Below are positions 47,177-52,920 of a stretch of DNA of 64,000 nt, in pieces (position 1 is the first letter of the stretch; each line of letters starts with the position of its first letter). Source of the stretch: Alphaproteobacteria bacterium (GTDB lineage Bacteria; Pseudomonadota; Alphaproteobacteria; SMXS01). The DNA is taken from contig WGNW01000018.1 in the NCBI GenBank assembly GCA_016124315.1, positions 1-64,000 of the forward strand, read 5' to 3'. The notes under the pieces were generated by a model. The model ran no database searches and was not told the DNA's origin. It was given only the letters and a program-made list of their open reading frames with translations. The position numbers were made by a program, and so were the translations under genes.

Positions 47177-47194
47177 GCGGCGGAGCGACCACGG

Positions 47195-47268
47195 ATAACG
47201 CGGATAAAACCTGTCTGCGTTTTGTGCTTGCGAGCCATAACGCGGAGTGATAGTGTCCGCGTTATGGC
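47195..47268 (+). promoter_or_regulatory. rrf2 operator: perfect dyad plus an extra half-site
   Basis: GCCATAACGCGGA (47234-47246), 9 nt, TCCGCGTTATGGC (47256-47268) is a perfect 13 bp inverted repeat that covers the rrf2 start codon. A third copy of the core ATAACGCGGA lies at 47195-47204. The arrangement suggests autoregulation by the encoded Rrf2 protein. Confidence 0.65.
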
Positions 47269-47806
47269 ACACATCACCTCCAGCGTCGAATATGCGATCC
47301 ACTGCCTGCTCTACCTGGTGGGCTCGGGCGACACGCCGCTCAGCAGCCGCGACCTGGCCGAGCTGCAGGGCGTCTCGCCCTCGTTCCTGGCCAAGATCTT
47401 TCCCAGGCTGGAGAAGGCCGGGATCGTCGCCGCCAGCGAGGGCGTGCGCGGCGGCTACGTGCTGGCGCGCCCGGCCGAGGCGGTCACCTTCCTCGACGTG
47501 GTCGACGCCGTCGAGGGCGACAAGAAGCTGTTCGACTGCCAGGAGATCCGCGGCCGCTGCGCCCTGTTCGAGGGCGACCCGCCCGGCTGGGCGACGAAGG
47601 GCGTCTGCGGCATCCACGCGGTGATGCTGAGCGCCGAGAAGGCGATGCGCGACAGCCTCGCCCGCACCACCCTCGCCGACGTGGCCGCCGGCTTCGGCCG
47701 CAAGGCGCCCAAATCGTTCTATGCCGACCTGTCCGACTGGATGGACGGGCGGATCAGGGCCCGCGCCTCGCCGCGCAGGGCGCGACCGGAGGAAGGCGCG
47801 GGCTAG
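47264..47806 (+). CDS. Rrf2-family transcriptional regulator
   Basis: 180 aa. The N-terminal winged helix reads SSVEYAIHCLLYLVGSGDTP, SSRDLAELQGVSPSFLAKIF and GVRGGYVLARPAEAVTFLDV. Three cysteines follow in FDCQEIRGRC and TKGVCGIH (spacing C-x6-C-x15-C), a possible iron-sulfur site as in NsrR/IscR but with longer spacing. The start MAHITSSVEY is embedded in a perfect dyad and has no ribosome site at normal distance, so translation may be nearly leaderless. The gene is followed, after 129 bp, by an NDH-2-like flavoprotein that may be its target. Confidence 0.88.
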   Translation: MAHITSSVEYAIHCLLYLVGSGDTPLSSRDLAELQGVSPSFLAKIFPRLEKAGIVAASEGVRGGYVLARPAEAVTFLDVVDAVEGDKKLFDCQEIRGRCALFEGDPPGWATKGVCGIHAVMLSAEKAMRDSLARTTLADVAAGFGRKAPKSFYADLSDWMDGRIRARASPRRARPEEGAG

Positions 47807-47935: not shown

Positions 47936-49144
47936 ATGACCAAGCAGATCCTCATCGCCGGTTCCGGATTCGCCGGCACCTGGGCCGCCCTCGCCGCCGC
48001 CCGCGCCGTCTCCCTGGCCGGCAAGGAGGGCGAGATCGCCGTCACCGTGGTCTCGCCCGAGCCGGCGCTGCACATGCGGCCCCGCCTCTACGAGACCGCC
48101 TTCGACGAGATGACGCCCGGCATCGGCCCGCTGCTCGAGGCGGTCGGCGTGCGCCACCTGCCCGGCACGGTGAGCGACGTGGACACCGCCGGCCGCCGCG
48201 TCACCGTCGCGGGCAAAGACGGGACGGAGCGGGTCCTGTCCTACGACCGGTTCGTGCTGGCGACCGGCAGCACCCTGTTCCGTCCCGCGATCCCCGGCCT
48301 CGCCGAGCACGCCTTCGACGTCGACCAGTTCGACGGGGCGACCCGGCTGCACGACCACCTCACCGCCCTCGCCGGCCGGCCGGACACGCCCGCCCGCAAT
48401 ACGGTGGTCGTGGTCGGCGGCGGCTTCACCGGCATCGAGCTGGCGACCAAGCTGCCGGCCCGGCTGCGGTCCATCCTGGGGCCGGACGCCGCGGTCCGCG
48501 TGGTGGTGCTGGAGCGCGCGCCCGCCGTCGGCTGGGAACTGGGCGACGGGCCTCGGCCGGTCATCGAGGAGGCGCTGGCCGACGCCGGCGTGGAATCGCG
48601 GACGGGCGCCGCCGCCGGCGCCATCGACGCCGGCGGCGTGGTCACCACGTCGGGCGAGCGGATCGAGGCCGCCACGGTGGTGTGGACCGCCGGCATGCGC
48701 GCCAGCCCGCTCGCGGCCCGCATCCCCGGCGCCCACGACGCGCTGGGCCGGCTCGCCGCCGACCGCTACCTGCGGGCGCAGGGCGTGCCGGGCGTCTTCG
48801 TCGCCGGCGATGTGGCCCTCGCCGCCACCGACGACGACGGCAACACCGCGCTGATGTCGTGCCAGCACGCGCTGAAGCTGGGGCGCGTCGCCGGCCACAA
48901 CGCCGCCGCCGAGCTGGCGGGCCTGCCGCTCCACCCCTACAGCCAGGCGCTCTACGTCACCTGCCTCGACCTCGGGCCGTGGGGCGCGGTGCAGACCGAG
49001 GGCTGGGACCGCCGGGTGGTGCTGACCCGCGGCGAGGCCAAGGCGCTCAAGCGGGAGATCAACACCAAGTGGATCTACCCGCCCGCCCCCGACCGCCAGG
49101 CCGCCTTCACCCTGGCCGACCCGGCCTACGAGATCGTGGGGTGA
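47936..49144 (+). CDS. NDH-2-like FAD-dependent pyridine nucleotide oxidoreductase
   Basis: 402 aa. The FAD-binding start is ILIAGSGFAGTWAALAAARA, and the second nucleotide (NADH) site is VVVVGGGFTGIELATKLPAR. VFVAGDVALAATDD closes the FAD site. No C-terminal membrane anchor stands out. The size and folds match type II NADH dehydrogenases and related flavoproteins; the electron acceptor cannot be told. It lies downstream of the rrf2 regulator on the same strand. The start MTKQILIAGSGFAG has an AAAGGA ribosome site. Confidence 0.85.
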   Translation: MTKQILIAGSGFAGTWAALAAARAVSLAGKEGEIAVTVVSPEPALHMRPRLYETAFDEMTPGIGPLLEAVGVRHLPGTVSDVDTAGRRVTVAGKDGTERVLSYDRFVLATGSTLFRPAIPGLAEHAFDVDQFDGATRLHDHLTALAGRPDTPARNTVVVVGGGFTGIELATKLPARLRSILGPDAAVRVVVLERAPAVGWELGDGPRPVIEEALADAGVESRTGAAAGAIDAGGVVTTSGERIEAATVVWTAGMRASPLAARIPGAHDALGRLAADRYLRAQGVPGVFVAGDVALAATDDDGNTALMSCQHALKLGRVAGHNAAAELAGLPLHPYSQALYVTCLDLGPWGAVQTEGWDRRVVLTRGEAKALKREINTKWIYPPAPDRQAAFTLADPAYEIVG

Positions 49145-49602: not shown

Positions 49603-50979
49603 CTAAACCGACAGGGAATGCCTGGCGCCGCCTTCCGGGTCGAGGTAGGCGTCGAAGCGGGCGCAGACGTGGCGGACGAACGGGCGGCCCCGTTCGGTGA
49701 TCCGCAAGCCGTCCGCCGTGCGCTCGACGAAACCGTCCTCATCGTCCGCCAGCACCGACCCGGCGACGGCGCGCACGGCCGCGGCCGCCGCCCCGCCGAA
49801 GCGCGCCGCCACCGCGTCCAGCGACAGGGCGAAGTCGCACATCAGCCGCTCGATGGCGAAGCCGCGCGCCCGGTCGTCGTCGCTCAGGGCCCAGCCGCGC
49901 ACCGTCGCCAGCCCGCCCCCGGCGACGCGGGCCGCATAGTCGGCAGCAGCCACCGCGTTCTGCACATAGCCCCGGGGCATCAGGCCGATGGCGGAAGCGC
50001 CCAGGCCGATCAGCGCGTCGGCCCGGTCGGTGGTGTAGCCCTGGAAGTTGCGGTGGAGCGCGCCGGTCGCCAGCGCGTCGTCCGGCCGGGCGAAATGGTC
50101 GAGCCCCAGCGCCACGTAGCCCGCCTGCGCCAGCCGCTCGGCCAGCAGCCGCGACTGGGCGAAGCGCTCGACGGCACCGGGCAGCGCCGCCCCGTCGATC
50201 AGCTTCTGGTTGGCGACCCGCCGCGGCAGGTGGGCGTAGCCGAACACGGCGATCCGGTCGGGCGCCAGGGCCAGCACCTGCTCGACGGTCGCGGCGAGGC
50301 TCGCCTCGGTCTGGCGCGGCAGGCCGTAGACCAGGTCGACGTTGACCGAGCGCACGCCCCGCGCGCGGAACAGGCCGATGGCCTCGCGCGTCACCTCGAC
50401 GCCCTGCAGCCGGCCGATGGCCTGCTGCACCGCCGGGTCGAAGTCCTGCACGCCGACCGAGATGCGGGTGACGCCGGCGGCGGCCAGCGCGTCGGCCTTC
50501 CCGGCCGTCATCAGCCGCGGGTCGACTTCGACGGCGAACTCGGCGTCCTCCTCCACCGCGAACCGCGCCCGCAGGGCGGCGGCGAGCCGGGCGATGTCGG
50601 CCGGCGTCAGGATGTCGGGCGAGCCGCCGCCCCAGTGGATGTGGGTGACACGGTGCCGCGCCGGCGCCAAGGCCGAGACCGCCGCGATCTCCGCCTCCAG
50701 CGCGTCCAGATAGCGCGCCACCGGCTCGTAGCGCCGCGTCGCCCTGGTGCTGCAGGCGCAGTACCAGCACAGGGTGTCGCAGAACGGGATATGCAGGTAG
50801 AGCGACAGCGCCGCCCCTTCCGGCAGCGCCGCCAGCCAGCGCCGGTAGTCGGCCGCGCCCACGCCGGCGCCGAAGTGGTTGGCGGTGGGATAGGAGGTGT
50901 AGCGCGGCAGCGCCGCCGCCCGCCGCGCCACCAGGGCGGCGTCGGCATCGGGCACGGCGAGGGAAACGGGCTTGTTCAC
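49603..50979 (-). CDS. hemN: Oxygen-independent coproporphyrinogen III dehydrogenase HemN
   Basis: 458 aa radical SAM enzyme of heme synthesis. The cluster motif is HIPFCDTLCWYCACST (C-x3-C-x2-C-x-C), and the family start RYTSYPTANHFGAGVGAADY is present, with HWGGGSPDILTPADI, EVDPRLMTAGKADAL and VNVDLVYGLPRQTEASLAAT. It converts coproporphyrinogen III to protoporphyrinogen IX without oxygen. The start was set at GTG (VNKPVSLAVPD) with GGAG before it; an ATG at 51039 would overlap a FixK/FNR-like box (51039-51052) placed suitably for this later start. Confidence 0.93.
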   Translation of the reverse strand: MNKPVSLAVPDADAALVARRAAALPRYTSYPTANHFGAGVGAADYRRWLAALPEGAALSLYLHIPFCDTLCWYCACSTRATRRYEPVARYLDALEAEIAAVSALAPARHRVTHIHWGGGSPDILTPADIARLAAALRARFAVEEDAEFAVEVDPRLMTAGKADALAAAGVTRISVGVQDFDPAVQQAIGRLQGVEVTREAIGLFRARGVRSVNVDLVYGLPRQTEASLAATVEQVLALAPDRIAVFGYAHLPRRVANQKLIDGAALPGAVERFAQSRLLAERLAQAGYVALGLDHFARPDDALATGALHRNFQGYTTDRADALIGLGASAIGLMPRGYVQNAVAAADYAARVAGGGLATVRGWALSDDDRARGFAIERLMCDFALSLDAVAARFGGAAAAAVRAVAGSVLADDEDGFVERTADGLRITERGRPFVRHVCARFDAYLDPEGGARHSLSV

Positions 50980-51038
50980 GGGCAGGCTCCGGCCGGTTGC
51001 ATCGGACCGGACCTTGCCGCGCCGGACGGCCGGCGGCA

Positions 51039-51052
51039 TTGCGCTGGCGCAA
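51039..51052 (-). promoter_or_regulatory. FixK/FNR-type activator box before hemN
   Basis: TTGCGCTGGCGCAA is a 6 bp inverted repeat with a 2 nt centre and fits the FixK2-type pattern TTG(A/C)-N6-(T/G)CAA. Its centre is about 66 nt before the hemN GTG. An activator at -41.5 would put the transcript start near 51004, about 25 nt before that GTG. Confidence 0.55.

Positions 51053-52189: not shown

Positions 52190-52920
<731 letters not shown>

Follow-up and report, generated by a model that had tools for sequence, protein, structure and literature searches.

Within the window, the whole 64-kb stretch of alphaproteobacterial DNA analysed here, a gene encoding an Rrf2-family regulator (rrf2) lies on the forward strand downstream of pit, a phosphate transporter gene, and is followed by a gene encoding an NDH-2-type NADH dehydrogenase. 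Two 25-bp dyads, each a putative operator, sit immediately before the rrf2 start codon, and the nearer of them overlaps an inferred promoter. The features of the locus are as follows.

47197..47221, no strand: putative distal operator, AACGCGGA-N9-TCTGCGTT, 42 bp upstream of the proximal one, with 2 mismatches in the 29-mer
47228..47233, + strand: inferred -35 element TTGCGA; its TTG lies 11 bp upstream of the proximal dyad and the spacer measures 17 bp, a layout shared by 18 of 38 orthologous loci
47239..47263, no strand: putative proximal operator, 25-bp core AACGCGGA-N9-TCCGCGTT, with perfect arms out to 47234-47268; orthologs share the frame
47251..47256, + strand: inferred -10 element TAGTGT, within the proximal operator and ending 7 bp before the ATG
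47264..47806, + strand: rrf2, encoding a probable RsrR-like regulator of 180 aa (Glu9, Tyr10, His13, Ala43, Cys92, Cys99, Cys115, His118)
47936..49144, + strand: NDH-2-type NADH dehydrogenase gene (Pyr_redox_2 by Pfam), probably the operon's second gene; among solved chains, 4nwz is the closest (E 3.2e-30)

Paired dyads at the rrf2 start codon

An earlier note on this DNA described three copies of a 10-mer around the rrf2 start codon, two of them forming a perfect dyad. Direct search indeed finds ATAACGCGGA at 47195-47204 and 47237-47246 and, inverted, at 47256-47265, and the last two copies extend, as claimed, into an inverted repeat at 47234-47268 whose 13-bp arms match perfectly around a 9-bp spacer and which runs across the ATG at 47264. 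The copy at 47195, however, is not a single element. It pairs with TCTGCGTTTT at 47214-47223 to form a second dyad with an equal 9-bp spacer and 2 mismatches, and the locus therefore carries two 25-bp dyads, at 47197-47221 and 47239-47263, set 42 bp apart.

The genome-wide search proposed in the earlier note was performed on the genome's own assembly (3.95 Mb, 84.1% complete). With up to three mismatches allowed, ATAACGCGGA-N9-TCCGCGTTAT has just two occurrences, an exact one at 47237-47265 and one with two mismatches at 47195-47223, and its reversed form, used as a control, has none. The dyad is thus not a widespread repeat, and the supposed third copy is the left arm of the second dyad, since the genome search recovers 47195-47223 in its own right. 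Within the window, 47234-47268 is the sole inverted repeat with arms of at least 13 bp and a spacer of at most 20 bp, and first-order Markov simulation of the window produced a comparable repeat in 1 of 20 runs. The 10-mer alone shows no excess over chance in the window (4 matches with at most one mismatch, 2.21 expected), so the weight of the argument falls upon the arrangement of the copies and their conservation.

Conservation of the dyads and of an inferred promoter geometry

Thirty-eight orthologs were compared, namely the window gene, five further genes of its genus (L004-L008) and 32 found in GTDB genomes (L033-L064) of Azospirillum, Novosphingobium, Sphingomonas, Zoogloea, Aromatoleum, Acinetobacter, Bradyrhizobium, Hyphomicrobium and other genera; 12 of the 38 are near-identical Acinetobacter sequences. 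A 34-residue partial match (L065) was excluded from this set. L008, irregular after about residue 73, was kept in the counts, which leave aside five loci without a picked ORF and several paralogs with doubtful ORFs. Family-level and order-level genome searches returned an identical 10 genomes.

The earlier note had staked its reading on conservation of the dyad upstream of orthologous rrf2 genes, and by sequence comparison the dyad is so conserved. A 25-bp dyad within three mismatches of AACRCRGA-N9-TCYGYGTT lies upstream of 36 of the 38 orthologs, with zero mismatches in 26. This degenerate 25-mer, which was drawn up after inspection of the orthologs, matches equally well in 5 of 1926 random windows of those loci, and the best match to its reversed form has at least 5 mismatches at all 38 loci. 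A pattern taken from the window only gives a comparable picture among the 37 other orthologs, with 20 matches at three mismatches or fewer (background 5/1957) and 35 at four or fewer (background 14/1957). In both comparisons the random background windows may themselves contain a few true sites. The two orthologs lacking an upstream dyad are both from Bradyrhizobium (L059, L060). Compensation between the arms was looked for as well: pairing is slightly better within than between sites (means of 7.04 and 6.73 pairs of 8 among 24 representatives), a difference too small to carry weight.

The pair is conserved as well. A second dyad (four mismatches or fewer) lies 35-42 bp from the first at 26 of the 36 loci, at exactly 40 bp in 19 of them; leaving aside the 12 Acinetobacter loci the count is 14 of 24, against 2/176 for an equal-offset control. 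In another genome of the same genus (G003) the pair is again 42 bp apart. Among eleven further loci (L090-L100), the ortholog of genome G046 (L090) has a pair of one-mismatch dyads and L091-L094 carry a dyad within three mismatches; the settled remainder fits the clade pattern poorly, at 4-6 mismatches.

This recurrence bears on what the distal dyad is. Its stem (47197-47221), together with the tail TTGTGCTTGC, resembles an intrinsic terminator placed 20 bp past the pit stop codon (1 such element found in a terminator scan, 0.4 expected in shuffles), and it might serve pit and nothing else, leaving the proximal dyad as the entire operator. We consider this quite unlikely, given that a second dyad accompanies the first at most loci that have one and that in Azospirillum NDH-2 and NmrA-like genes are likewise preceded by pairs 42 bp apart, as described below. 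One sequence may also act both as terminator and as operator.

Exact dyads were also sought in 385 genomes of the class, 15 of which bear an ortholog at E 1e-25 or better. Zero-mismatch dyads occur in nine of the 385, and in three for the reversed control. Four of the 15 ortholog-bearing genomes hold seven such dyads, all of them just upstream of the ortholog at distances of 0-42 bp (0 and 43 bp in genome G182); the other 11 hold none, and several of them have a dyad with one to three mismatches instead. Five of the 370 remaining genomes contain one dyad each, by eye two of these terminator-like (L085, L086) and one tandem-repeat-like (L082), with two unclassified.

The dyad nearest the start also holds its position relative to an inferred promoter. 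Found by a search tuned to this region, the window promoter matches 7 of 12 consensus bases, and a standard, stricter consensus promoter scan reported nothing at the locus. At the 12 Acinetobacter loci the offset from TTG to dyad is 9, with the spacer likewise 17 bp. The -10-like hexamer reads TATAGT at 10 loci, TACAGT at five, TAGTCT at 13 (Acinetobacter and L036) and TAGTGT in the window, and it ends 6-8 bp before the ATG at 19 of the 38 loci, the window included, with 7 bp at 17. By eye, the 15 bases before the ATG at those 19 loci contain no Shine-Dalgarno sequence. Because the -10 element ends about 7 bp before the ATG and no Shine-Dalgarno sequence is seen, the transcript at these loci is probably leaderless.

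The distance from dyad to ATG, by comparison, varies, being 25 bp in Acinetobacter, 37 bp in Azospirillum and 90 bp at L052. Since this distance changes while the -35/-10 geometry is kept, the dyad is linked to the inferred promoter rather than to the start codon. The same evidence addresses control at the RNA level, wherein an mRNA hairpin would hide the start codon and regulate translation. The RNA of 47190-47300 does fold strongly in prediction (-43.3 kcal/mol, z -3.8), with a 13-bp stem around the AUG. An RNA hairpin is nevertheless disfavoured as the conserved element because the dyad tracks the inferred promoter; moreover, the inferred transcription start would leave most of the stem untranscribed, and the same dyads precede NDH-2 and NmrA-like genes. 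Translational control of this kind is thus highly improbable. Absent from the rest of the assembly, conserved before 36 of 38 orthologs and overlapping the inferred promoter, the two dyads very probably constitute an autoregulatory operator, in agreement with the proposal of the earlier note.

The regulator and its nearest relatives

The window protein belongs to the Rrf2 family according to PF02082 (120.9 bits, cut-off 30) and TIGR00738 (104.4, cut-off 73.3). It shares family and winged helix-turn-helix fold with NsrR and RirA, yet falls far below the cut-offs of the curated models for both (40.1 bits against 182 for NsrR, 52.6 against 193 for RirA); the NCBIfam IscR model likewise scores 51.4 bits against a cut-off of 207.55. 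Among solved structures, RsrR of Streptomyces venezuelae is the closest to it in sequence (2e-28, with IscR at 6e-11). A structure predicted from 31 relatives (pLDDT 87.1) retrieves RsrR chains at ranks 1-11 (8e-13 to 6e-12), followed by CymR and IscR at about 1e-7 and NsrR at 2e-6.

A tree of 39 rows was computed from 21 of the 38 orthologs, nine of the eleven further loci, a 140-residue stretch of RsrR and eight paralogs, these being other Rrf2 proteins of the taxonomic family; characterised IscR and NsrR proteins lay outside this set. RsrR, on a long branch, groups together with L099 and L100 and with the window clade, apart from the eight paralogs (support 97/93), and the fork leading to the window clade has support 89/81.

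Alignment columns were assigned to cluster ligands using RsrR residue numbers that we take to be correct. In terms of residue identity only, all 38 orthologs have Glu9 and His13 in the respective RsrR ligand columns, and 37 have Cys92 and Cys115 in theirs, the exception being L008. Glu9 and His13 are furthermore invariant in 31 of 31 aligned rows, distant rows included, and by eye are absent from those positions in the eight paralogs of the tree. RsrR is described as having a cluster held by two Cys of one monomer and Glu and His of the other, with Trp9 beside it as a redox gate (PMC11138216). All 38 orthologs carry Tyr (Tyr10) in place of this Trp and so lack the Trp9 gate as such, and the distant class members L099 and L100 carry Trp. 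The clade also adds two residues that RsrR lacks, Cys99 (37 of 38, L008 again excepted) and His118 (38 of 38). Position 43 is Ala in 36 orthologs and Ser in two, and the recognition segment SPSFLAK is close to SPSYLAK of RsrR. These comparisons make it likely that the regulator is RsrR-like.

The operators resemble each other, too. The sven6562(nmrA)-rsrR intergenic region contains two inverted repeats to which RsrR binds (PMC5015018), so that its own promoter region, like that of the window regulator, holds two full sites. Taken from the primer table of that report and set in the 25-bp frame, these sites read AACTCGGA-N9-TCCGAGAT and TACTCGGA-N9-TCCGAGTC; within the same frame, 3 of 16 positions in the first and 4 in the second depart from the window pattern. 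The common form is (A)ACnCGGA-N9-TCCGnG(T/A). By sequence resemblance, the window promoter carries a putative RsrR class-1 inverted-repeat operator with one base changed per arm, G here for T in RsrR. An intermediate form occurs in a more distant class member (L094, 55% identical), in which AACTCGGA-N9-TCGGAGTT lies 4 bp before the likely start. The proteobacterial system differs from that of Streptomyces in the spacing of its pairs, 39-43 bp in most loci that have one, and in its Tyr10 for Trp9, its added Cys99 and His118, its NDH-2 partner and its probable leaderless promoter. The number of sites also differs, two in our assembly against 630 sites reported as bound by RsrR in S. venezuelae by ChIP (PMC5015018), although a sequence search and a ChIP experiment give different kinds of count.

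Comparison with IscR is closer than the earlier note allowed in setting the site apart from IscR and NsrR boxes. The outer arms do bear that remark out, reading AACGCG here against ATASYY in IscR type-1 sites, and the dyads do not match the full type-1 operator ATASYYGACTRWWWYAGTCRRSTAT. The frame, on the other hand, is that of the RsrR operator, and the ortholog consensus agrees over its inner 13 bp (GACTAATATAGTC) with the core of IscR type-1 sites, given as GACTRWWWYAGTC (PMC6599224); the window's own cores, GAGTGATAGTGTC and GATAAAACCTGTC, do not fit it fully. Type-1 sites share the 25-bp size as well, and the Pseudomonas aeruginosa iscR promoter is described as having two sites, one between -35 and -10 and one upstream of -35 (PMC6599224, PMC5411485).

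This fit of the inner core invites the suggestion that another Rrf2 protein, of the IscR, NsrR or RirA type, binds the dyads while the local protein acts elsewhere. Such a division of labor is hardly credible. In the 15 ortholog-bearing genomes, exact dyads occur in four and lie at this gene only; the outer arms misfit the IscR consensus; and the recognition segment is that of RsrR to within one residue, with Ala43 in place of the Glu43 of IscR. Replacement of Glu43 by Ala is reported to enable apo-IscR to bind type-1 sites (PMC5411485). No isc gene was noticed at the window locus.

A separate alternative concerns the sensor and leaves the operator as proposed. Cys92, Cys99, Cys115 and His118 could hold the cluster in the manner of IscR, whose ligand set is given as three Cys and one His (C92, C98, C104, H107; PMC6599224), and the signal would then be Fe-S or iron status and not redox state. 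The near-universal Cys99 and invariant His118 resemble this set. Against it stand Glu9 and His13, invariant at the RsrR ligand positions and by eye missing there from the paralogs, the overall similarity to RsrR, and the association of the putative operators with NAD(P)H-related genes. An IscR-like ligand set accordingly remains a live rival for the sensor, possible if clearly the less probable choice, and is no rival for the operator.

NDH-2, other candidate targets and a proposed redox-feedback model

The probable second gene of the operon has its closest solved match in 4nwz, which we take to be an NDH-2, and its next in the NADH dehydrogenase-like chains 9pxk and 5na1. In the window and at 24 of the other 37 loci, 25 of 38 in all, an NDH-2 gene follows rrf2 on the same strand; at the remaining 13 it is not adjacent. 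At one Hyphomicrobium locus (L056:4544-8525) the ortholog is followed instead, by eye, by efflux-pump genes encoding a membrane fusion protein and an RND transporter. The gap between rrf2 and NDH-2 contains no operator in the window, where the best 25-mer has 7 mismatches, or in seven other gaps, where it has 6 or 7.

Copies of the dyad away from orthologous rrf2 genes point to possible further targets. In the Bradyrhizobium ortholog loci without an upstream dyad, a one-mismatch dyad lies at the 5' end of the neighbouring NDH-2 gene (L060), and a zero-mismatch degenerate dyad at 2132-2156 precedes a shortened rrf2 remnant that leads into NDH-2 (L059). A zero-mismatch dyad before an internally shortened rrf2 remnant is thus seen in two Bradyrhizobium genomes (L059 and L118:2783-2807), with other rrf2 copies nearby. 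In Azospirillum rugosum and A. canadense, rrf2 lies with its own operator between nifK and nifE (L033, L034: 4001-4522), the nif genes identified being nifD, nifK and nifN in L033 and nifE in L034. A. canadense has in addition a pair 42 bp apart before NDH-2, with one mismatch in each dyad (L117), and both species have a zero-mismatch 42-bp pair before a gene encoding an NmrA-like NAD(P)-binding protein (L115, L116).

Across 19 ortholog-bearing genomes, a set that excludes the genome of L059, the pattern with at most one mismatch occurs at 37 places in 17 genomes, from 0 to 5 places per genome, and the reversed control at four. Eighteen of these places lie 0-67 bp upstream of an ortholog. One immediately precedes the ATG of an additional rrf2 copy (L120) and another the remnant leading into NDH-2 (L118); three lie before NDH-2 and four before NmrA-like genes. 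One more, with one mismatch, precedes a gene for a GntR/aminotransferase-type regulator in Bradyrhizobium (L119:2552-2576), a possible further target. This assignment to genes covers 28 of the 37 places; the other nine all have one mismatch. An NmrA-like target was also considered in the genome of the window itself, in which only a 27% relative was found.

The candidate targets of the clade are thus tied to NAD(P)H metabolism, as in Streptomyces, where the main RsrR target carries an NmrA domain (PMC5015018). The NmrA-like partners are not equivalent; that of Streptomyces is described as a LysR-type regulator with an NmrA domain, whereas in Azospirillum the gene encodes a short protein resembling NmrA. 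According to the same report, the RsrR mutant showed no phenotype.

Together, these comparisons suggest that the dyads are probably the operator pair of an RsrR-like Fe-S redox repressor that controls both itself and NDH-2. We favour repression over activation. A dimer bound to 47239-47263 would cover the -10 element and most of the -35/-10 spacer and thereby block RNA polymerase, and a second dimer about four helical turns upstream, at 47197-47221, would assist. Because NDH-2 lies downstream and probably in the same operon, repression at this promoter would set the levels of both rrf2 and NDH-2.

The recurrence of NDH-2 and NmrA-like targets, together with the precedent of RsrR, suggests that the signal is the redox state of NAD(P)H. 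If the regulator works as RsrR does in S. venezuelae, DNA would be bound by its oxidised [2Fe-2S] form and released by the reduced one. Surplus NADH would then reduce the cluster and open the operon, NDH-2 would burn NADH, and the loop would close. On balance we lean, by a modest degree, towards redox control of NDH-2. The idea is directly testable because the operator is short and sharp, each genome holds few close matches, and NDH-2 is a clear candidate target.

A more elaborate proposal, speculative and on present evidence unlikely, is that these proteins form a distinct proteobacterial sister clade of RsrR, linked to NDH-2, in which either of two jointly conserved ligand sets could hold the cluster, the RsrR-like Glu9/His13/Cys92/Cys115 or the IscR-like Cys92/Cys99/Cys115/His118; ligand exchange, with Tyr10 replacing Trp9, would then be the switch. 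If true, the cell's NADH-burning enzyme would be under direct NADH-responsive control. In the literature searched, which consisted mostly of articles other than subscription papers and preprints, the work on RsrR concerns one Streptomyces species, and nothing was found that deals with this clade or with control of NDH-2 by an Rrf2 protein; the proteins described here come from a proteobacterial sister clade, and their conserved change at the switch residue, with the extra Cys and His, offers natural variants for study of the mechanism.

Two further observations concern the DNA beyond NDH-2. Convergent with the NDH-2 gene lies hemN (49603-51039), encoding an oxygen-independent coproporphyrinogen III oxidase (405.2 bits, cut-off 324.95); this neighbour, too, is related to redox or oxygen. 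Farther on, 52250-52920 encodes a Phd-family antitoxin (TIGR01552) followed by what by eye is a PIN-domain-like toxin gene, itself without an NCBIfam match, and the two form a probable toxin-antitoxin pair.
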